Below are positions 14,043 through 23,143 of a stretch of DNA of 42,041 nt, piece after piece. A program made the position numbers and the translations under genes. The DNA comes from Dehalococcoidia bacterium. GTDB taxonomy: Bacteria > Chloroflexota > Dehalococcoidia > DSTF01 > JACRBR01. The notes beneath the pieces are model-generated. The model did no database searches. It had not been told where the DNA came from and saw nothing but the letters and a program-made list of their open reading frames with translations. The DNA lies in assembly GCA_021462855.1 (NCBI GenBank), contig JAJTXQ010000014.1, forward strand, positions 1 to 42,041, read 5' to 3'. Position 1 is the first letter of the stretch, and the number at the start of each line of letters is the position of its first letter.

Positions 14043-15245
14043 TCAGGCTCCGTACTTCGCGAGGCGCCCCGCGTACGCCATCGCCAGCGAAAGCGCTTCC
14101 TTTGCGGGGAAGGTGCCGAGCACGCCGTTCGCGCAGGCGCGCTCATTGAACCCCTCGGTGCCGTCGTGACGGGCGAACGATTGGGTGTGCAGCAGGAACG
14201 GCACGGGGTGCCACGAATGCCCCGCGATCGTCGCCGGCGTCGAGTGGTCGCCGGCGATCATGAACACGTCGGCCTGAAACGCGTGCAGATCCTCGATGAA
14301 CCCATCGATGTCCTCGAGCGCACGGATCTTCTTCTGGAAGTCGCCGTCCTCGCCCGCCGAGTCCGCCGGCTTGTAGTGGATGAAGAAGTAGTCGAACTCG
14401 TCCCTGTGCGCGCGCAGCGTCTCCAGTTCCTCGGCGAAGGTCATGCCGGTCTTCAGCACGGTCATCCCGACCAGCTTCGCGAGGCCGCGGTACATCGGGT
14501 AGGCGGCAATGGCGGCCGCGCGGAACTTGCACGTCTCGGTGATGGACGGCATCGGCGGATGCTTCGCGAGACCGCGCAGCGTCAGCATGTTCGCCGGGTG
14601 TCGCCCGGCGAGCTTCGCCTTCGCCTGGGCAATGAATTCGTTGAGGAGCGCAGCCGTCGGCTCGGCGTCGGCGTCGAGCGCGCGCACCGGGAGCGGCTCC
14701 TTTCCCTCGCGCTGTGGGTCCGTTTCCGTGAGCCGGTCGGAGAGCCCCTCGCCCCGCAGCACGAGCAGAAAGCGATGCTCGCGCACCGGTTCGACGAATA
14801 CCTGCACGCCGGGGATGCTGATCTCTCGCAGCAGCGCGCACGTCTCGGCGTTCTGCTCGGTCGGCAGGCGTCCCGCGCGCCGGTCGATGATCCGGCCGGC
14901 GTCATCGGTGGTGCAGAAGTTGCCGCGGGCGGCGACGTCGCTCGGCTGCAGGTCGAAGTCGATGCCCAGCGCCTCGAGCACGCCACGCCCGACCTTGTAC
15001 GTGAGCGGGTCGTACCCGAACAGCGCCAGGTGGCCCGGCCCGCTGCCCGGCGTCACACCGGGCGCCACCGGCACCGTCAGCCCGCACAGGCTCTCCTGCG
15101 CCAGCCGGTCTAGGTGCGGGACGTGCGCCTGCTCCAGTTCCGACCGCCCTGTCTCGTTCGGCACGCCGCCGAGCCCGTCGATGACGAGCATCAAGATCTT
15201 CGAATCGGACGGAACGGAGAGCTCGCGGAGCAGGTCGAGTTCCAC
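14043..15245 (-). CDS. apgM: 2,3-bisphosphoglycerate-independent phosphoglycerate mutase, archaeal type
   Basis: 400 aa, the short alkaline-phosphatase-superfamily form found in archaea and some bacteria, not the 510-aa GpmI. Metal-ligand motifs are MLVIDGLGG at the N-terminus, GSGPGHLALFGYDP with the phospho-acceptor Ser region, FIHYKPADSAGEDGD, and FMIAGDHSTPATIAGHSWHP near the C-terminus. It interconverts 3- and 2-phosphoglycerate. The GTG start lies 6 bases after TAGGAT, so the operon messenger is probably leaderless. It leads the operon through tpiA, miaA, dapF, GNAT, DUF421 and alpha-galactosidase. Confidence 0.94.
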   Translation of the reverse strand: MELDLLRELSVPSDSKILMLVIDGLGGVPNETGRSELEQAHVPHLDRLAQESLCGLTVPVAPGVTPGSGPGHLALFGYDPLTYKVGRGVLEALGIDFDLQPSDVAARGNFCTTDDAGRIIDRRAGRLPTEQNAETCALLREISIPGVQVFVEPVREHRFLLVLRGEGLSDRLTETDPQREGKEPLPVRALDADAEPTAALLNEFIAQAKAKLAGRHPANMLTLRGLAKHPPMPSITETCKFRAAAIAAYPMYRGLAKLVGMTVLKTGMTFAEELETLRAHRDEFDYFFIHYKPADSAGEDGDFQKKIRALEDIDGFIEDLHAFQADVFMIAGDHSTPATIAGHSWHPVPFLLHTQSFARHDGTEGFNERACANGVLGTFPAKEALSLAMAYAGRLAKYGA

Positions 15246-15251
15246 GCGCCG

Positions 15252-15257
15252 ATCCTA
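15252..15257 (-). promoter_or_regulatory. -10 box of leaderless apgM operon
   Basis: TAGGAT on the minus strand, 6 bases before the GTG of apgM. No recognisable -35 lies 16-19 bases further upstream. The spacing implies that the start codon is also the 5' end of the messenger. Confidence 0.6.
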
Positions 15258-15296
15258 GCACGCCCTCGCGGCTGGAGCATGAGCCGTGCGGCCCCG

Positions 15297-16526
15297 CTAC
15301 GCCGCCGCCTCCACGATCAGCGGCCGCGAGCGCAGGCGGCGCACCTCGGGCACAAGGAGCACAGCCGCCGTCGGCGCGACGATCAGCGCCACCCCGAGCC
15401 AGAGCGTGGTATCGACGCCGATGGCGTCGGCCATCGGGCCGGCGGCGACGAGACCGAGCGGCGAGAGCGCGATCGACCCGAGCGCGTCGTACGCGCTCAC
15501 GCGCGACAACGCCTCCCGCGCGACGTGCTCGTGCAGCGCCGTGAACCACAGCACGCCGAATACCTCCATGCCGATGCCATTGACCACCGCGGCGGCCACC
15601 AGCGCGGGCAACGGCAGGCCGAGCGCGAGGCCGGCGATCGGCAGCGCGTTGGTGAACACCATGACCGTCGCGACGAGCATCGGACGCCCGGGACGCCACC
15701 GCAGCGAGAGCGCGCCGCCGGCAAGCAACCCGACAGCCTGGCCGCCGACGATCGCCGCCCACGAGCTCGCGCCCGAGAGGTCGCGCTCGGCGACGACGGG
15801 CCCGAGCACCTCGAACGCGCCGAAGAAGCCCACGAGCATGAGCGAAAACTGCACGACGATCGTCCACAGCCAGCGGTGCGCCGTGAACTCGCTCCATCCG
15901 GCGCGCAGGTCAGCAAGAAAGCTCGCGCCGGCCGCGGCCGCCGCCTCGATGCCGCGCATCTGCGAGAGGATCGCCGCGGCGATGAAGAACGTCGCCGCGT
16001 CGGCGGCAATTGCCCAGCCGGCGCCAAACGCGCCGACGAACACGCCGGCCAGCGCCGCGCCCAGGATCATCGCCGCGTTGCGCCCGAGGCCGAGCAGCGC
16101 GTTCGCCGGCTGCAGCTGCTCCTCCGGGACGGTCTGCGGCACGACGGCCGAGTCCGCCGGATGCAGCAGCGCGAACGACGCGCCGTTGATCGCCTCGAGC
16201 GCGATCAGGTGCCACACCTCCGCCTGCCCAGTGATCAGCAGCGCCGCGACGACGGCCTGCGTCACCCCCGCCACCGTATTCGCGCCGACGAGGACGACGC
16301 TCCGCGGCAGCCTGTCGGCGATCACGCCGCCCCCGACGAGAAACACGACGTTCGGCAGCATCCGCGCCGCGAGCACCAGCCCGAGCATCGAAGCCGACCC
16401 CGTGAGGTCGAGCACGCCGAACGCGAGCGCAACGGGCGCCATCGCGTTGCCGAGGTACGACACGAGCCGCCCCGCGAACAGCAGCCCGAAGTTCCGTTGC
16501 CTCAGCAGCGAGATCGCGCCGAACAT
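15297..16526 (-). CDS. MFS transporter
   Basis: 409 aa with about twelve hydrophobic segments, of the MFS_3/enterobactin-exporter-like type. It opens FGAISLLRQRNFGLLFAGRL, has the loop-2/3 motif GGGVIADRLPRSVVLV (G-x-x-x-D-R-x-x-R) and RNAAMILGAALAGVFVGAFG in helix 5. An efflux role is the family norm; the substrate is unknown. The ATG at 16526 is preferred over one at 16553 because CATACT sits exactly 6 bases upstream, as at several other genes here, and the conserved sequence starts there. Confidence 0.88.
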   Translation of the reverse strand: MFGAISLLRQRNFGLLFAGRLVSYLGNAMAPVALAFGVLDLTGSASMLGLVLAARMLPNVVFLVGGGVIADRLPRSVVLVGANTVAGVTQAVVAALLITGQAEVWHLIALEAINGASFALLHPADSAVVPQTVPEEQLQPANALLGLGRNAAMILGAALAGVFVGAFGAGWAIAADAATFFIAAAILSQMRGIEAAAAAGASFLADLRAGWSEFTAHRWLWTIVVQFSLMLVGFFGAFEVLGPVVAERDLSGASSWAAIVGGQAVGLLAGGALSLRWRPGRPMLVATVMVFTNALPIAGLALGLPLPALVAAAVVNGIGMEVFGVLWFTALHEHVAREALSRVSAYDALGSIALSPLGLVAAGPMADAIGVDTTLWLGVALIVAPTAAVLLVPEVRRLRSRPLIVEAAA

Positions 16527-16532
16527 CGCCGG

Positions 16533-16538
16533 AGTATG
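16533..16538 (-). promoter_or_regulatory. -10 box of leaderless MFS gene
   Basis: CATACT on the minus strand, 6 bases before the ATG at 16526. No -35 match. It also argues against the longer start at 16553, which would lie upstream of this box. Confidence 0.55.
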
Positions 16539-16619
16539 ACACCTGGCGGGCATGCGGACGCCGGCCCCGCGGCATGACGCGCGCGGCCGGCACCGCCCGA
16601 TTCCGCGTCGAGGCCGCCG

Positions 16620-17546
16620 TTACCGCGCGGAGCGGCGACGCAGCATCAGTACGCCGGTTGCCCCGGCAGCGGCGCCCGCGGCGAAGGTCACGGCAAGGAC
16701 CGGGACGATCGTGCCGTCGATCTCGCCGTCGTCGCCAGCGCCCGCGTTCGGCGCGAGGACGCCCGCCGGCTTCGTCGGCGCAGCCGCCGGCGCGGGCGCC
16801 GTGGGTGATGGCGCGGCCGGCGCGGGGCCGGCCGACACCAGCTCGAGCACGCCGTCGGGCGCCTCCTCGCGGACGAGACCGACGCCCGGACAGTAGTACT
16901 TGAACTCGGTGATGCCGGGTTCCAGCGGCGTGAAGTCCTTCGTCTTCAGGCACCCGTCCCAGGCGCCCGCGGGCGTCTCGACGCGCTCGTTGAGTGACAT
17001 CACGGTGTACATATCCTCCGCGACGCCGGGCGCGTCTTCGCTCTGGTACGTCGTGCCGGCGACCGGACTCGCCGGCATGATGATGCCGGGCGCATTGGCC
17101 CCTTCGCCCGACAGCCACTGCCCGGCGTGGTCGCGGAACTGGCCATCCTCGAAGTTGTCGACGCGTTCGCCGAAGTAATACACCGACCCGTCGCGGTGCT
17201 GCGCGAAGTAGTCGAGCGCCGTCTCGATGAGCTCGCCATCCGCGTACGCCTTCTCCTCGAGCACCGTCAGCGTGACGCCGATGAGCGTCTCCGTCTGTGC
17301 CAGCACGCGCGACTCGAGTCGCGTTTCAATCGTCTCGCCGGTGTCCGGGTCCGTCTCGGCGCCCGCAAACACTTTCGGACCGGTCAGCGAAATCGGGAAC
17401 AGCGGGTTTGTGATCGCCGGCTGGAAGTCAGCCGGATCAACGGCGGCCCCCCGGGCCGAGGCGCCGCCGGGGGCGCCGATCACGGCAGCGGTCGCCACCA
17501 GGGCGGCAATCGTGATGTAACGGGACGCGCGTTGCGCAATCTCCAC
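16620..17546 (-). CDS. secreted protein with C-terminal membrane anchor, unknown function
   Basis: 308 aa from a GTG at 17546, chosen because GAGAGGA lies 6 bases upstream. A signal peptide (YITIAALVATAAVIGAPGG) is followed by a beta-rich domain of about 210 residues with ITNPLFPISLTG, VTLTVLEEKAYADGELIETA, DYFAQHRDGSVYYFGE and LEPGITEFKYYCPGVGLVRE. A Pro/Ala/Thr linker and a C-terminal helix with basic tail follow. I have seen this domain as an uncharacterised secreted family, but I cannot name it. Downstream of a PepSY gene and a PadR operon, it may act in the cell envelope. Confidence 0.72.
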   Translation of the reverse strand: MEIAQRASRYITIAALVATAAVIGAPGGASARGAAVDPADFQPAITNPLFPISLTGPKVFAGAETDPDTGETIETRLESRVLAQTETLIGVTLTVLEEKAYADGELIETALDYFAQHRDGSVYYFGERVDNFEDGQFRDHAGQWLSGEGANAPGIIMPASPVAGTTYQSEDAPGVAEDMYTVMSLNERVETPAGAWDGCLKTKDFTPLEPGITEFKYYCPGVGLVREEAPDGVLELVSAGPAPAAPSPTAPAPAAAPTKPAGVLAPNAGAGDDGEIDGTIVPVLAVTFAAGAAAGATGVLMLRRRSAR

Positions 17547-17602
17547 GATGATTCCTCTCAGTTTCAACACGTGCACGCTTCTTGATCTGGACGTGGCCGG
17601 CG

Positions 17603-17923
17603 TCAGTCGTCGGACTCGGCGCCGAGCACGCGGCCGGTCGCCGCGTCCACCTTCACGTCGTCGTTTCCGACGTCTACGTTGAACACGAGCGTGCCCTGCC
17701 AGTATTCGAGGTCGACTTCATCGACGGGGCCATCCGTCGCCGCGGTGGCAGCGTCGATCGCCGCCGCCAGCGAGATGCCGGCCTGCGGCAGCAGTTCGGC
17801 GCCGTCGTCGAGCCTCCCTGGCGCGGAGCCGGAAGCGCGATCCGGGATGAGCAGGTAGACACCGAGCGCAACTCCGGCGATCACCGCCACAGCCGCCCCA
17901 ACAACCTTCGTTCGCGTGAACAT
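17603..17923 (-). CDS. PepSY-domain protein, membrane-anchored
   Basis: 106 aa. One N-terminal helix (VVGAAVAVIAGVALGVYLLI) anchors a single PepSY domain: ISLAAAIDAATAATDGPVDEVDL, then EYWQGTLVFNVDVGNDDVKVDAATGRVL. PepSY domains are thought to inhibit proteases or bind ligands outside the membrane. The coding region lies between a small membrane protein and the secreted protein; the gaps of about 55 bases still allow co-transcription. SD AAGGAG lies 5 bases before the ATG. Confidence 0.86.
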   Translation of the reverse strand: MFTRTKVVGAAVAVIAGVALGVYLLIPDRASGSAPGRLDDGAELLPQAGISLAAAIDAATAATDGPVDEVDLEYWQGTLVFNVDVGNDDVKVDAATGRVLGAESDD

Positions 17924-17978
17924 CGGTTACTCCTTCCATGTGATTGGATGACGCCGCATGGCACGCAGACGCCGTCGA

Positions 17979-18386
17979 TCAGCCGGAAGCGAGCACCTCA
18001 TGCTGGAACACGGCCCGCACGATCGCGAGCGCAACACCAGCGAACACCGCCGCGGCGATACCGCTCGCGACGAGAAACACGTCATCATCGGCGCCGAGCG
18101 CCTCGAACTCGACCCAGGCGAGCGCCCGCAGCGAGCACGCCGCCACAAGGGTGACGGCCACCGCAACGCGCGTCCGCGCGGTCATGGCGTCGATCAGCCT
18201 CGCGGCAAGCGCCGAGAGCACGATCGCCGCCGCGCCCGCCATCCACGCGAAGCGGTCGCGCGCGCGATGGATCGTCGCCGCTTCGGCGAGCATCGCCGCC
18301 ATCCAGCGGCGCTCACCCGGTGGACACATCGCGATGGCGCACCGCGCAAGCCAGTTCGACGGGGCGTAGGGCGCTGCGCTGCTCAT
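17979..18386 (-). CDS. small integral membrane protein co-translated with PadR
   Basis: 135 aa with about three hydrophobic helices (MAGAAAIVLSALAARLIDAM, VAVAVTLVAACSLRALAW, FLVASGIAAAVFAGVALAIV) after an N-terminal amphipathic part (CAIAMCPPGERRWMAAMLAE). Its start overlaps the padR stop by 4 bases. Membrane proteins directly after PadR regulators are often transporter accessory or sensor proteins; I cannot assign a family. Confidence 0.75.
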   Translation of the reverse strand: MSSAAPYAPSNWLARCAIAMCPPGERRWMAAMLAEAATIHRARDRFAWMAGAAAIVLSALAARLIDAMTARTRVAVAVTLVAACSLRALAWVEFEALGADDDVFLVASGIAAAVFAGVALAIVRAVFQHEVLASG

Positions 18387-18703
18387 CGTCCGAACTCCTC
18401 CGCGGTCCTGAATGTCGTCGTCGCGCGGGACTGGCGCTGTTCCAGGAGCGCGAGTCCCTCGGCCGCGCCGGACGCGGACAGCCGGTAGAGGTGCCGCCGG
18501 GGTTTGCCGGGCGCCGGCTCGTCTTCCCAGCGCGACTCCAGCCAGCCCTGCCGCTCCAGCCGCATGAGGATGGGATACAGCGTGCCGGACTTCAGTTCCG
18601 TTTCGCGGCTGATGTCGTAGCCGTGCCGCCAGCCGGCGCGGTCAGCGAGCAGCGCAACGAGCACCGCTTCCGTCTGCCTCGACGAGTTGGGTCTGCGTGC
18701 CAT
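18383..18703 (-). CDS. PadR-family transcriptional regulator
   Basis: 106-aa winged-helix repressor. Motifs: ADRAGWRHGYDISRETELKSG, then TLYPILMRLERQGWLESRWE (recognition helix and wing approach) and PRRHLYRLSASGAAEGLALL. The short C-terminal helix places it in the compact PadR-s2 subgroup, which dimerises through that helix and binds hydrophobic drugs or phenolics. The promoter is near consensus and leaderless. The membrane gene overlaps its stop, so repressor and target are probably co-regulated. Confidence 0.9.
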   Translation of the reverse strand: MARRPNSSRQTEAVLVALLADRAGWRHGYDISRETELKSGTLYPILMRLERQGWLESRWEDEPAPGKPRRHLYRLSASGAAEGLALLEQRQSRATTTFRTAEEFGR

Positions 18704-18709
18704 GACCCG

Positions 18710-18737
18710 ATTATCTACATATATCGAGAAATGTCAA
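18710..18737 (-). promoter_or_regulatory. strong leaderless promoter of the padR operon
   Basis: TTGACA (18732-18737), a 16-base spacer and GATAAT (18710-18715), with the ATG 6 bases after the -10. An inverted pair ACAT-N10-ATGT (18717-18734) overlaps the spacer and -35. It could be a PadR operator, although the classical box has the half-sites in the opposite order. Confidence 0.72.
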
Positions 18738-18793
18738 TCCCCAATTTGGCCCGGCCTTGACGCGAAATCGCGAGGCGAATTGAGAGCGCTGGA

Positions 18794-20107
18794 TCATGGC
18801 ATCGCGCCCGCGAGCGCTTCCTCCGGCTCCCGGGGGTGCGCCGCCTGCGCCTCGCGGGGCGGCCGCGGCGCGCGCTTCGGCAGCAGGCCGAGCGCCCACG
18901 ACAGCGGCCACGCCAGGGCGATGCTCGCCGGGACGTACACCGCCACGAGGAATACCCACCACGCACCGTCGCCGGCCTGCTCAATCCGCAACTGGCTGGC
19001 GACGAGGCGCATCGCGTCGTTCACGATCAGCACGCCGTACGAGATGACGCCAACCCATGCGATTGCGCGGACCGGCGCGGACGCGTCGACGCGCGACGGC
19101 CGCTTGACCAGCAACGGCAGCGCCAGCAGCGCGAGCCCGAGCGTCACGAGGGGGAGCGCCATCGCCTGCCAGTAGCGCGCCGTCCACTCGCCGATCAGCA
19201 GGTCGCCCGCGGTGTGCGCTGCGAACCCGAGCAACAGCGCCGCGACGACCGCCAGCGGATGCCGAGCGAACGTGAGCCAGCGCGCGCGCTCGTGCTCCGG
19301 CGCGGCGAGCAGCCAGCCGATGCCCATGCCGGCAGTGAACTCAAACAGGCGGAACGGCGCCCATCCCGTCACCATCGCGAACTGGAATTCGGGCGCGCCG
19401 TAGCGGTCGACACCCCACCAGTTCGCGCCGACGGTGAGCCCGAACGTCGCGACGAGAAACAGCGCAACGCCGAGCCGCCGCATCAACACGAACAGGAGCG
19501 GGAACAGCAGGTAGTACTGCGCGAGCAGTCCGACGAACCAGAGCGCGAGTTGGGGCGCAAAAAACCACTTCGACTCGAGCAGGCGCGGCACGAGCGCGAC
19601 ACTGGCGAACGCCACGCCCCAATCGACATTGATCACGCTGCCGCGGGCGATCGTCACGCCGCCGGTGAACTGATCGCCGAAGTCGCCGCCATCGACCGTC
19701 ACCTGCCGCCAGGCGATCAGCGCCATCACCCCGTAGGTGAGCGCGACGCCGGCCCAGTACGGCGCCAGCAGCTTGCGGAAGCGATGCGCGAAGAAGCGCG
19801 GCCAGCGCAACGCGTCGCCCGTGCGATACGCGGCGATCGTCAGCGAAATGCCGCTGATCATCATGAAGAGCGGCACGCCCTGGAATCCGTCGCGGAAGAA
19901 CAGGTCCGTCACCGAGGTGAAGATCGCCGACGCGCCGCGGCTCTCGCTCACCTGGTAGCGCAACTGGTCATAATACGCGTGCGGCGCGCCCGGGAAGAAC
20001 TCCAGGTCGCCCCACAGGTGGAACAGCACCACCCACGCGATCGCAAACCCGCGCAGCACGTCGATGGCGATCAGCCGGTCCGTCGCCGGCGCTTCGCGCT
20101 CCTTCAA
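18794..20107 (-). CDS. acyltransferase-family multi-pass membrane protein
   Basis: 437 aa from a TTG at 20107 with GGAGG 4 bases upstream; longer frames add arginine-rich, non-conserved residues. About ten helices. The opening RLIAIDVLRGFAIAWVVLFH matches acyltransferase-3/DUF1624-like proteins (R-x-x-x-x-D-x-x-R-G). Then comes GVPLFMMISGISLT, and later LLAQYYLLFPLLFVLMRR. Such proteins O- or N-acylate sugars at the membrane (cell-wall, polysaccharide or lipid decoration). Acceptor and donor are unknown. It is divergent from the acyl-CoA dehydrogenase gene. Confidence 0.85.
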   Translation of the reverse strand: MKEREAPATDRLIAIDVLRGFAIAWVVLFHLWGDLEFFPGAPHAYYDQLRYQVSESRGASAIFTSVTDLFFRDGFQGVPLFMMISGISLTIAAYRTGDALRWPRFFAHRFRKLLAPYWAGVALTYGVMALIAWRQVTVDGGDFGDQFTGGVTIARGSVINVDWGVAFASVALVPRLLESKWFFAPQLALWFVGLLAQYYLLFPLLFVLMRRLGVALFLVATFGLTVGANWWGVDRYGAPEFQFAMVTGWAPFRLFEFTAGMGIGWLLAAPEHERARWLTFARHPLAVVAALLLGFAAHTAGDLLIGEWTARYWQAMALPLVTLGLALLALPLLVKRPSRVDASAPVRAIAWVGVISYGVLIVNDAMRLVASQLRIEQAGDGAWWVFLVAVYVPASIALAWPLSWALGLLPKRAPRPPREAQAAHPREPEEALAGAMP

Positions 20108-20150
20108 GGCGCCTCCGTGAGATTCGACCGCGCGGGGGACCGTGGGCGAA

Positions 20151-20178
20151 ACGATACGCCGTGCCACGTTACGTTCAA
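20151..20178 (-). promoter_or_regulatory. promoter of the acyltransferase gene
   Basis: TTGAAC (20173-20178), 16 bases, TATCGT (20151-20156) on the minus strand. The predicted leader is about 37 bases and includes the GGAGG that selects the TTG start. Confidence 0.6.
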
Positions 20179-20244
20179 TACCCAACCGCAACGATGGTAA
20201 GCGTGAGCCCGCGGCTGCCCTGTACGAGCGCCGCGCCACTCGCG

Positions 20245-20250
20245 CATAAT
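20245..20250 (+). promoter_or_regulatory. -10 box of leaderless acyl-CoA dehydrogenase gene
   Basis: CATAAT, 6 bases before the ATG at 20257. No clear -35. The intergenic region (20108-20256) therefore holds two back-to-back promoters. Confidence 0.55.
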
Positions 20251-20256
20251 CGCCGC

Positions 20257-21426
20257 ATGGACTTCCGCTTCACGGCCGCGGAAGAGGCGTTCCGCGACGA
20301 GGTCCGCGCATTCGTGCGCGCCGAGCTGCCCGCCGGCTGGGGCAGCCGCGCGTACAACGACCGCGAGGACGCGCCACCCGAGCATCGCGCCGCGGCAAAC
20401 GCGTTTCAGCGCAAGCTCGCCGAGCGCGGCTGGCTCACGCTCGCCTGGCCGAAGGAGCACGGCGGTCTCGGCGCCGGGCCGATGCAGCAGCTCGTGTACA
20501 ACGAGGAGATGTCCGCGCTCCGCGCGCCCGGGTTCGGTGGCACCGGCGTCGCGATGGTCGGCCCGACGCTCATGCTGCACGGCACCGATGAGCAGCGCGC
20601 GCGCTTCCTCGGGCCGATCGCGCGGAATGAGATGTCGTGGTGCCAGGGGTTCAGCGAACCCGGCGCCGGCTCCGACCTCGCGTCGCTGCAGGCGCGAGCC
20701 GTGCAGGACGGCGACGACTTCGTGGTCAACGGCCAGAAGATCTGGACGTCGGGCGCGCACAAGTCGGACTACTGCATCCTGCTCGCCCGCACCGATGCCG
20801 ACGCGCCGAAGCACAAGGGCATCAGCTACTTCCTCATGGATATGAAGTCACCCGGGATCACCGTCGCGCCGCTGACGAACATGCTCGACTCGGGCGCGTT
20901 CTCGCAGCTGTTCATGGACAGCGTGCGCATCCCGCGCGCGAACCTCGTCGGCGAGCTGAACCGCGGCTGGTACGTCGCGACGACGACGCTCGACTTCGAG
21001 CGCTCCGGCATCCAGCGCATCGTCTTCGCGCAGACGCTATTGGACGATGTAACGGCGTGGGCACGCACGCGCGGCGACGCGTCACCGTCGGTGCGGCACA
21101 AGCTCGCCGAGCTCGGGATCGAGTTCACCGTTGGCCGGCTGCTCGCCTACCGCGTGGCGTGGATGCAGGGCCAGGGACTCGTGCCCAACAGCGAGGCCTC
21201 GGTCGCAAAGCTGTACTCGACCGAGCTGCAGTCTCGCTTCTCGGTAGCCGCGCTGGCGATCCTCGGACTGCGTGGCCTGCTGACGCGCGCGTCGGCGCAC
21301 GCCACGCTCGATGGCCGGCTGACGAGCTACTATCTCGCCGCCGTGTCGTACACCATCGCCGCCGGCACTTCCGAGGTGCAGCGCAACATCATTGCCCAGC
21401 GCGGGCTTGGCCTGCCGCGCGACTGA
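20257..21426 (+). CDS. acyl-CoA dehydrogenase family protein
   Basis: 389 aa. FAD-dependent alpha,beta-desaturation of an acyl-CoA is the family reaction. Domain order is normal: N-terminal helical MDFRFTAAEEAFRDEVRAFV, FAD loop WCQGFSEPGAGSDLASLQ, VNGQKIWTSGAHKSDYCILL, and C-terminal helical domain ending AAGTSEVQRNIIAQRGLGLP. At the place where classical short/medium-chain enzymes have the catalytic Glu (YEGTS), this one has Ala. The same is seen in FadE28/29-type and other GGTSEIQRN enzymes, which use another base or a partner subunit. The 2-hydroxyacyl-CoA lyase follows 64 bases downstream, also on +. Confidence 0.92.
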   Translation: MDFRFTAAEEAFRDEVRAFVRAELPAGWGSRAYNDREDAPPEHRAAANAFQRKLAERGWLTLAWPKEHGGLGAGPMQQLVYNEEMSALRAPGFGGTGVAMVGPTLMLHGTDEQRARFLGPIARNEMSWCQGFSEPGAGSDLASLQARAVQDGDDFVVNGQKIWTSGAHKSDYCILLARTDADAPKHKGISYFLMDMKSPGITVAPLTNMLDSGAFSQLFMDSVRIPRANLVGELNRGWYVATTTLDFERSGIQRIVFAQTLLDDVTAWARTRGDASPSVRHKLAELGIEFTVGRLLAYRVAWMQGQGLVPNSEASVAKLYSTELQSRFSVAALAILGLRGLLTRASAHATLDGRLTSYYLAAVSYTIAAGTSEVQRNIIAQRGLGLPRD

Positions 21427-21490
21427 TCGCGCTTCTGTCGCATCGCGCCGCGCGCGCGTAGAATGCCGCGCATCGAACGGAGGCACCACC

Positions 21491-23143
21491 ATGGCGGAGA
21501 TCGATGGCGCGACGCTCATCGCGCGGAGCCTGAAGCAGCACGGCGTCGACTACATGTTCGGGATCGTCGGCATCCCCGTCGTGCCGATCGCGTTCCAGGC
21601 GCAGCGCGCCGGCATCAAGTACATCGGCATGCGGCACGAGCAGTCGGCGTCGTACGCGGCGCAGGCGGTCGGCTACCTGACCGGGCGCCCGGGCGCGTGC
21701 CTCGTCGTATCGGGGCCCGGCATGACGAATGCGATCTCCGGCCTCGCAAACGCGTGGTCGAACCGCTGGCCGATGCTGCTGCTCGGCGGCGCATCCGACA
21801 TGGCGCAGCACGGCATGGGCGCGTTCCAGGAGGCGCCACAGGTCGAGGCGGCGCGCCCGTTCACCAAGTACGCCGCCGAGGTCGACCGGATCGAGCGCAT
21901 CCCCTACTTCGTCGAGCAGGCGGTGCGGACATCGATGTACGGGCGGCCCGGCGCCGCCTACCTCGACCTTCCCGGCGACATCATCTCCGGCAAGGTCGAT
22001 GACGATGTCGCTCCGCAGCGGCCGCGCGTGCCGGATCCGCCGCGCTCGCTGGCCGACCCGTCGTCGGTCGAGGCGGCGGTCGCCGCGCTGAAGAGCGCCG
22101 AACGGCCGCTCGTGGTCGTCGGGAAGGGCTGCGCATACGCGCGGGCGGAGGACGAGGTCCGCGCGTTCATCGAGTCGACGCAGCTGCCGTTCCTCGCGAC
22201 GCCGATGGGCAAGGGCGTCATGCCCGACGACCACCCGCTGTCCGTCGGCGCCGCGCGGTCCTTCGTGCTGCAAAACGCCGACCTCGTGTTCCTGATGGGC
22301 GCGCGGCTCAACTGGATCCTGCACTTCGGCCTGCCGCCACGGTTCAATCCGGACGTCCGCGTGGTCCAGATGGACATCGCCGCCGAGGAGATTGGCACGA
22401 ATGTCCCGGCTGAGGTCGCGCTCGCCGGCGACGCGAAGGCGGTGACGGCGCAGATCAACGCCGTACTCGCCGCTGCGCCGTGGCAGTTCCCGGCGGAGAG
22501 CACATGGCGCACCGGCATCGGAAAGAAGATCGAAGAAAACCGTCTCGCCACGGCGCCGCTGTTCGATGACGACTCCGTGCCGATGAACTACTACCGCGTG
22601 CTGCGCGAGATCCGCGACGTGCTCCCGCGGGACGCGATCATCGCCAGCGAAGGCGCGAACACGATGGACATCGGCCGCACGGTGCTGCCGAACTTCGAGC
22701 CGCGCCACCGGCTCGATGCCGGCAGCTTCGGCACGATGGGCGTCGGGCTCGCGTTCGCGATCGCGGCGCAGGCGGGGAACCCCGGCAAGCGCGTGGTGGC
22801 GGTCGAAGGCGACTCGGCGTTCGGCTTCAGCGGCATGGAGGTCGAGGTGGCATGCCGGTACAACATGCCGATCACCTTCATCATCCTGAACAACAATGGC
22901 ATCAGCGGCGGCCCGGACACGCTGGACCCCGAGCGCGTGATGCCGACGGCGTACGTGCCGAAGGCGCGCTATGAACGCGTGATCGAGGCGTTCGGCGGCG
23001 ACGGCTACTTCGTCGAGACGCCGGACCAGGTGCGCCCGACGCTCGAGAAGGCGCTCGCGAGCGGCCGGCCGAACATCGTCAACATCATGATCAGCGCGCA
23101 GGCGGGAAGGAAGCCGCAGCAGTTCGGCTGGCTCACGCGCTGA
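21491..23143 (+). CDS. thiamine-diphosphate-dependent 2-hydroxyacyl-CoA lyase (oxalyl-CoA decarboxylase-like)
   Basis: 550 aa. N-terminal pyrimidine domain with GIVGIPVVPIAFQ and catalytic-Glu motif MRHEQSASYAAQAVGYLTG (Glu about 50), central domain, then the TPP/Mg2+ motif EGDSAFGFSGMEVEVACRYN...NNNG (from about 440). The C-terminus IMISAQAGRKPQQFGWLTR closely resembles that of HACL1-type 2-hydroxyacyl-CoA lyases. These cleave a 2-hydroxyacyl-CoA to formyl-CoA and an aldehyde one carbon shorter. Oxalyl-CoA decarboxylase is the main alternative. GGAGG 8 bases upstream fixes the start; TAGAAT at 21459-21464 is a plausible -10. Confidence 0.88.
   Translation: MAEIDGATLIARSLKQHGVDYMFGIVGIPVVPIAFQAQRAGIKYIGMRHEQSASYAAQAVGYLTGRPGACLVVSGPGMTNAISGLANAWSNRWPMLLLGGASDMAQHGMGAFQEAPQVEAARPFTKYAAEVDRIERIPYFVEQAVRTSMYGRPGAAYLDLPGDIISGKVDDDVAPQRPRVPDPPRSLADPSSVEAAVAALKSAERPLVVVGKGCAYARAEDEVRAFIESTQLPFLATPMGKGVMPDDHPLSVGAARSFVLQNADLVFLMGARLNWILHFGLPPRFNPDVRVVQMDIAAEEIGTNVPAEVALAGDAKAVTAQINAVLAAAPWQFPAESTWRTGIGKKIEENRLATAPLFDDDSVPMNYYRVLREIRDVLPRDAIIASEGANTMDIGRTVLPNFEPRHRLDAGSFGTMGVGLAFAIAAQAGNPGKRVVAVEGDSAFGFSGMEVEVACRYNMPITFIILNNNGISGGPDTLDPERVMPTAYVPKARYERVIEAFGGDGYFVETPDQVRPTLEKALASGRPNIVNIMISAQAGRKPQQFGWLTR

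Follow-up and report, generated by a model that had tools for sequence, protein, structure and literature searches.

A four-gene PadR operon in a Dehalococcoidia bacterium

We analysed 42,041 nucleotides (nt) of Dehalococcoidia bacterium DNA (GenBank assembly GCA_021462855.1, contig JAJTXQ010000014.1, positions 1 to 42,041), hereafter the window, which belongs to a genome of 3.0 Mb with a GC content of about 70% and carries four co-directed minus-strand genes for a PadR-family transcriptional regulator, a small membrane protein (named here MEM), a PepSY protein and a secreted, anchored beta protein (named here SEC), in that order. All four open reading frames (ORFs) were confirmed in the ORF listing. 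PadR (18383..18703, minus strand; 106 residues) scored 49.3 bits against Pfam PF03551, above the curated cut-off of 27, and is 64-67% identical to the PadR proteins of G005 and G002 (genomes are labelled G and loci L throughout). MEM (17979..18386, minus strand; 135 residues) bears an N-terminal CPxxERxWxxAMxAE motif, three hydrophobic regions and a DDDVFL motif, and its start overlaps the PadR stop by ATGA. The PepSY gene (17603..17923, minus strand) lies 55 nt further on, its start preceded by GGAAGGAG, and encodes 106 residues with a single N-terminal hydrophobic segment, scoring 30.8 bits against Pfam PF03413 (cut-off 24). SEC (16620..17546, minus strand) is a beta-rich protein of 308 residues when read from the GTG at 17546, which has GAGAGGA upstream as a ribosome-binding site; the first GTG, at 17576, would give 318 residues, and it is to this start that the PepSY-SEC gap measures 26 nt. 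SEC consists of a signal-like N-terminal segment, a folded domain (16818..17459, minus strand) and a C-terminal hydrophobic anchor (16641..16709, minus strand) followed by RRR, so that the PepSY protein and the secreted, C-terminally anchored, beta-rich protein announced in a preliminary description of this DNA are both borne out.

The same order and strand of PadR, MEM, PepSY and SEC recur in G002 (L017) and G005 (L020), both related Chloroflexota, and the operon is therefore real and conserved beyond chance.

The PadR promoter contains a conserved candidate operator

Upstream of PadR we found a sigma-70-like promoter (18710..18737, minus strand) matching the consensus at 11 of 12 positions, with a -35 element TTGACA (18737-18732), a 16-nt spacer and a -10 element GATAAT (18715-18710). 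This was the sole promoter match on either strand of a 5.1 kb region (15200-20300), for which shuffled sequences gave a mean of 0.2. TTGAC and GATAAT are common to the PadR genes of the window, G002, G005 and G011, and the ATG follows the -10 element by 6 nt in the window and by 7-8 nt in the other three. Because of this 6-nt gap a leaderless PadR mRNA is expected, and the PadR start should be leaderless, in agreement with the strongly promoted, leaderless regulator first proposed.

Within the spacer, and taking in the first two bases of the -10 element, lies the imperfect dyad TCGATATATGTAGA (18714..18727, minus-strand reading), a candidate PadR operator on the strength of its conservation: TATGTAGA (TATGTCGA in G005) starts 17-20 nt upstream of the ATG at five PadR genes, those of the window, G002, G005, G011 and G720. 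Counted by eye on a TCTACAT/ATGTAGA register, the arms pair at five of seven positions in the window, G011 and G720 and at six of seven in G002 and G005, whilst a scripted 10+10 count at a fixed centre varied from 3 to 8 of 10, because the centre of the dyad differs between genes. The site's own 16-mer, allowing up to three mismatches, occurs once within the window (0.01 expected). A conserved dyad in the PadR promoter suggests, as the simplest reading, a dedicated autorepressor. The same kind of promoter and site also precedes a solo PadR of the same type in G011 (L168:4938-5261), where MEM, PepSY and SEC were not seen alongside.

SEC represents an unnamed family with a predicted DUF3108/YmcC-like fold

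A scan of species genomes yielded 136 SEC relatives, of which the best 80 were kept, with near-duplicates included (several from Mesorhizobium; L102 and L104); these 80 loci include contigs of G002, G005, G017, G091, G092, G158 and G211. The relatives span Chloroflexi, Actinomycetota, Planctomycetota, Verrucomicrobia, Acidobacteria, Proteobacteria and archaeal metagenome-assembled genomes (MAGs), among others. In plasmid sequences we found only weak records, three per search, which were hypothetical or unannotated. The window SEC had no NCBIfam match and scored 18.1-19.1 bits against the Pfam profile DUF3108_like (PF21347), under its cut-off of 27; the family is unnamed. SEC as a known PDB sequence family was likewise rejected (best E 0.44 and 0.97).

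The folded domain was predicted by AlphaFold2 with a mean predicted local distance difference test (pLDDT) of 96.1 and a predicted template modelling score (pTM) of 0.91, the structure prediction suggested in the preliminary description thus returning a confident beta fold. Its nearest solved folds were 4fvs (Foldseek E 6.2e-7; VIA Z 11.7 over 169 residues) and 3fzx (Foldseek E 1.4e-6; VIA Z 11.9 over 172 residues), with 6ntr at VIA Z 11.6; outer-membrane barrel chains at Z 8-9 in the same list were discounted as a common arrangement. Both 3fzx and 4fvs are titled merely putative lipoprotein or putative exported protein, and we take them to be members of DUF3108-like families. In its nearest folds SEC would thus resemble DUF3108-like/YmcC-like exported proteins, and one diverged relative, L105, passes the DUF3108_like cut-off (28.6 versus 27 bits), but only 5 of 67 SEC members match this profile at E 0.01, and no Pfam family covers the SEC family. 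The model is thus consistent with an unnamed family of predicted DUF3108/YmcC-like fold.

Invariant residues of the family include E79, E98, E141 and K187 (modelled-domain numbering), and D83, D149 and E185 are nearly invariant. A scripted survey of the 80 loci found a lipobox in 30 and a C-terminal hydrophobic segment like that of the window only in L044 (the G002 contig); the family seems to achieve tethering in more than one way. At L078, L079 and L098 at least two SEC domain matches fall in one chain.

PepSY and two-component genes cluster around SEC

Two-component genes lay within 2 kb of SEC in 35 of the 80 loci, 32 of which had both a response-regulator and a kinase match, whilst a PepSY-like gene lay within 1 kb in 29 loci and both kinds of neighbour were present in 21. 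A link between PepSY and SEC had been posited from the window alone, and this neighbourhood survey upholds it. As an internal control for distance, the rate of two-component genes per 1-kb bin from SEC was 0.19, 0.28 and 0.28, then 0.08, 0.05 and 0.03, and that of PepSY genes was 0.17, 0.05 and 0.02, then 0. The two-component count depends on the method, with 38 of 80 within 3.5 kb by clustering and 40 of 80 across the whole locus by the direct search that gave the 35. ORFs in the loci came from a codon-score script, the SEC frame was less than 2 kb from a locus end in 31 of 80, and PepSY-like matches came from a hidden Markov model (HMM) iterated on the same loci; Pfam at E 0.001 on 33 of these matches returned 13 PepSY, 8 PepSY_2 and 4 PepSY_like, overlapping. 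Besides two-component genes, the three largest neighbour clusters occurred at 5 of 80 loci, two of the three being PepSY-like, and in a Pfam scan of 90 of the 127 adjacent ORFs (125 of them under 1100 residues) other families reached at most 2 of 90 proteins among the matches listed.

Two loci encode the pair as a fusion: L133 (PepSY-like residues 52-130, SEC 152-353) and L105 (PepSY-like residues 28-96, SEC 112-310). In both, the order of domains is the order of genes in the operon, and both adjoin two-component genes; their PepSY parts were seen by the iterated HMM, with a Pfam PepSY E of 0.047 for L133 and no Pfam PepSY match for L105. Co-occurrence and these two fusions support PepSY and SEC as a putative extracytoplasmic, membrane-tethered sensing pair. 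SEC also adjoins proteins of about 1020-1050 residues at L054 and L121, probably the two ACR_tran (AcrB-type pump) matches.

Closer to the window, 9 of 99 relatives had a SEC match, some of them short, as did 18 of 393 genomes in a sample of the class, some by short stretches. G092 (L018) has the order response regulator, histidine kinase, PepSY, SEC, with the two-component genes in place of PadR-MEM. Ten further SEC regions (L124-L133, of which L125 and L129 repeat L048 and L060) held two-component genes in four cases (L127, L130, L131 and L133) and a PadR or MEM match in none, and L019 and L021 held neither two-component genes nor a PadR/MEM match. Among the seven Pfam-scanned proteins of the window's operon and its flanks there was no histidine kinase or response regulator.

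PadR and MEM form a recurrent pair without a recognisable HAAS domain

The coupling of PadR to MEM noted in the preliminary description was evident at all four pairs seen, where the two genes share 4 nt across the end of PadR and the beginning of MEM (ATGA in the window, G002 and G005; GTGA in G720). Its three-helix MEM fared less uniformly: three hydrophobic regions are present in the window protein, but the first two are merged in G002. MEM had no Pfam or NCBIfam match over cut-off, the best being DUF3077 at 14.2 bits (cut-off 21, E 0.054), and the window protein is 29-30% identical to those of G002 and G005, which share 57% with each other.

G720, a more distant genome, has a PadR gene (within L202:3906-5258) and after it one for a MEM-like protein that shares the P...W..AM.AE...W..GA pattern of MEM, but the gene downstream is a different one. 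A search for the MEM N-terminal region in this genome's family returned G720 itself only (1 of 42 genomes). This downstream gene resembles a small lipoprotein by eye and would be a second possible cargo of PadR-MEM. Other MEM matches were set aside as chance membrane similarity: L203-L208 had no PadR match in their loci and appeared by eye to encode longer transporter-like proteins, L209 and L210 likewise lacked PadR, and PadR was absent from the listed neighbours of a weak match in G317 (L169).

MEM was rejected as a HAAS protein, as Pfam scans did not return PF22564 and hhalign against nine HAAS sequences from relatives gave a probability of 0.2% over 10 columns; this alignment used only three MEM sequences, and a very remote HAAS kinship may thus still exist. 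The window's own genome had no PF22564 match at E 0.001. HAAS matches were found in 19 of 60 relatives, 17 of which had a PadR match on the same contig at a distance of about 0.4 kb or less (counted by eye), and the dyad principle is therefore in use in this lineage.

PepSY and SEC have been exchanged separately

We built a SEC tree from the window and 66 of 87 domain stretches, near-copies and most second copies having been removed, by a quick search with support from the approximate likelihood-ratio test (SH-aLRT) only. The window and L044 (G002) group with L045, which has two-component and PepSY genes, and with L046 and L048, which have neither (support 99), and this group nests in one of 11 rows with five more loci of the two-component and PepSY kind (support 98). 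L058 (G005) falls elsewhere, in a 16-row group containing 11 two-component loci, 8 of these with PepSY (support 95). The starred branches of the tree require the PadR-MEM label to have changed at least twice, and both groups with PadR-MEM hold two-component-associated SECs. The PepSY proteins split differently: that of the window is closest to the L018/L045 two-component locus, and the PepSYs of G002 and G005 are alike and also resemble those of mostly actinobacterial two-component loci. Between G002 and G005, which belong to the same genus, identity is 66% for PadR, 57% for MEM and 68% for PepSY, and just 39% for SEC. Together with the PepSY split, these values indicate that PadR-MEM is the constant part and that PepSY and SEC are exchanged separately; as judged from these comparisons, each is swapped for a kind found elsewhere beside a two-component system. 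Two histories may fit, in which a two-component system was replaced twice or parts were exchanged under one PadR-MEM pair. An assembly error in a single MAG could give the appearance of a SEC exchange in G005, and would not explain the PepSY split.

A proposed PadR-MEM circuit in place of a two-component system

Gene context and the SEC tree suggest that PadR-MEM most likely fills the role of the kinase and response regulator in the PepSY-SEC module, and we give slightly better than even chances to the fuller reading, in which the operon is an autorepressed envelope-sensing circuit with PadR-MEM in that position. PadR would bind the imperfect dyad in its own promoter and shut off the PadR-MEM-PepSY-SEC transcript, as the conservation of the site suggests. 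The PepSY-SEC pair would sense outside the membrane and feed its state to MEM, which may relay it to PadR by contact through the conserved N-terminal helical region. When PepSY-SEC met a ligand or damaged envelope material, MEM would release or retain PadR and the operon would be induced; candidate signals include lipidic ligands, metals and misfolded material at the surface. Of the 'envelope-stress or ligand-sensing module' first suggested, the sensing role is plausible in view of the two-component neighbours, the fusions and the DUF3108/YmcC-like fold, with a ligand and envelope stress both as candidate inputs.

Several published systems are close in logic. For HAAS-PadR-like winged helix-turn-helix dyads, a role alternative to that of two-component systems has been proposed (PMC11237479), which favours the circuit outlined above. 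Listeria PadRs repress their own genes, and the lltR operon comprises a PadR, a DUF1700 membrane protein and a DUF4097 exoprotein (PMC6624303). As in these dyads, including Listeria lltR-lmo0600-lmo0601, PadR here adjoins a membrane protein, and lltR is also autorepressed and has a secreted protein after it; unlike them, MEM is without a HAAS domain and the cargo is PepSY and SEC rather than DUF4097/Toastrack. In Vibrio cholerae the periplasmic PepSY protein DbfQ acts on its sensor kinase, and DbfQRS shares with our operon a small extracytoplasmic PepSY protein encoded with a signalling pair (PMC12714742), but the pair here is PadR-MEM, a SEC gene follows, and PadR is not mentioned in the main text of that paper. 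In UipRS-UipA of Microbacterium, similarly, the PepSY protein encoded next to the two-component genes crosses the membrane once (PMC8963506), although UipA has tandem PepSY domains. The likeness to the HAAS-PadR dyad in particular means that the claim of 'no known counterpart' was too strong; what our searches of one open-access library did not return was a PadR with a non-HAAS membrane partner and PepSY-SEC cargo. We therefore offer a broader proposal more tentatively, at somewhat less than even confidence: that PadR-MEM is an undescribed membrane-to-DNA pair distinct from HAAS-PadR, and that on two or more occasions it has been combined with parts of an unnamed PepSY-SEC surface-sensor module, which is widespread and in its relatives is run by histidine kinases and response regulators, such that inputs would be exchanged between phosphorelay and non-phosphorelay switches.

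Several observations weigh against the proposed circuit. The four-gene operon was found in three genomes only (the window's own, G000, and G002 and G005), MEM was matched in 4 of the 393 class genomes, one of these being a weak match whose listed neighbours include no PadR, and MEM is without a recognised domain, its structure model being so poor (pLDDT 67.8) that a structure search with it was dropped. The PepSY proteins of G002 and G005 fall below the Pfam cut-off (20.3 and 18.1 versus 24 bits). At the distances given above, 37 of the 80 SEC loci have neither neighbour, 17 of them less than 2 kb from a locus end and 20 not, and SEC can therefore occur without either. Of the three members of the window's own SEC group that lack PadR-MEM, one is a two-component locus, and the separate exchange of PepSY and SEC speaks against close co-evolution of an interface between them. 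Searching the window's own genome with TCTACNTATGTAGA (up to two mismatches) recovered the operator site, on both strands, and two other places, but a reversed control pattern also gave four matches, as many as TCTACNTATGTAGA itself, and the evidence for the operator is therefore the position and conservation of the site.

Known PadRs have small hydrophobic compounds as ligands, and the strongest alternative, which we consider rather unlikely, is that PadR is a plain cytosolic ligand-responsive autorepressor, with a non-signalling MEM, PepSY and SEC as its regulated envelope-protection cargo. The solo PadR of G011 is consistent with this, as are the PadR-repressed membrane proteins and autoregulation established in Listeria (PMC6624303), but the 4-nt overlap of PadR and MEM, kept at all four pairs seen, the different cargo behind the G720 pair and the frequent placement of PepSY-SEC beside sensor kinases elsewhere speak against it. 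It is less probable still, and in our view improbable, that PepSY-SEC is a UipA-like surface module for metal handling or tolerance and the operon a metal-inducible resistance set. UipA is a uranium-binding PepSY protein encoded beside the UipRS two-component system (PMC8963506), and the acidic residues of SEC are invariant (E79, E98, E141) or nearly so (D83, D149, E185), but no metal-resistance family recurs beside SEC, ACR_tran and MMPL efflux families each reaching 2 of 90 scanned neighbours (among the 25 of 98 families listed). Least of all, and very improbably, SEC could be a lipid or lipoprotein carrier of LolA/LmcA-type fold for envelope transport with incidental regulators. Its fold matches to LmcA (VIA Z 9.2), LolA (Z 8.4) and RseB (Z 7.9), to be read with care, favour this reading, but they fall below the three best (11.6-11.9) and middling scores are common for such folds; moreover, a shuttle would not usually be tethered as SEC is, through the C-terminus in the window and through a lipobox in 30 of 80 homologues.

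If PadR-MEM does replace a two-component system, the operon would be a natural case in which a PadR and a small membrane protein appear as its stand-in on the same extracytoplasmic module, and the published idea of PadR-membrane dyads as an alternative becomes directly testable by swapping. This suggests that one kind of signalling switch could replace another, and that the SEC beta-fold family, which spans many bacterial phyla and also archaea, is a likely partner of PepSY sensors.

Genes flanking the operon

A major facilitator superfamily (MFS) transporter gene (15297-16553) lies on the same strand 66 nt downstream of SEC, the gap having no detected terminator. It was rejected as a member of the module, as the SECs of L017 (G002) and L020 (G005) have no MFS match beside them. 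On the other side, two genes (20161-23143), putatively acyl-coenzyme A (CoA) dehydrogenase-like and oxalyl-CoA-decarboxylase-like, start about 2.6 and 3.8 kb from SEC. The G017 locus (L019) has what looks by eye like a close homologue of the oxalyl-CoA-decarboxylase-like gene about 2.3 kb from SEC, and a CoA-transferase-like gene separates the two.

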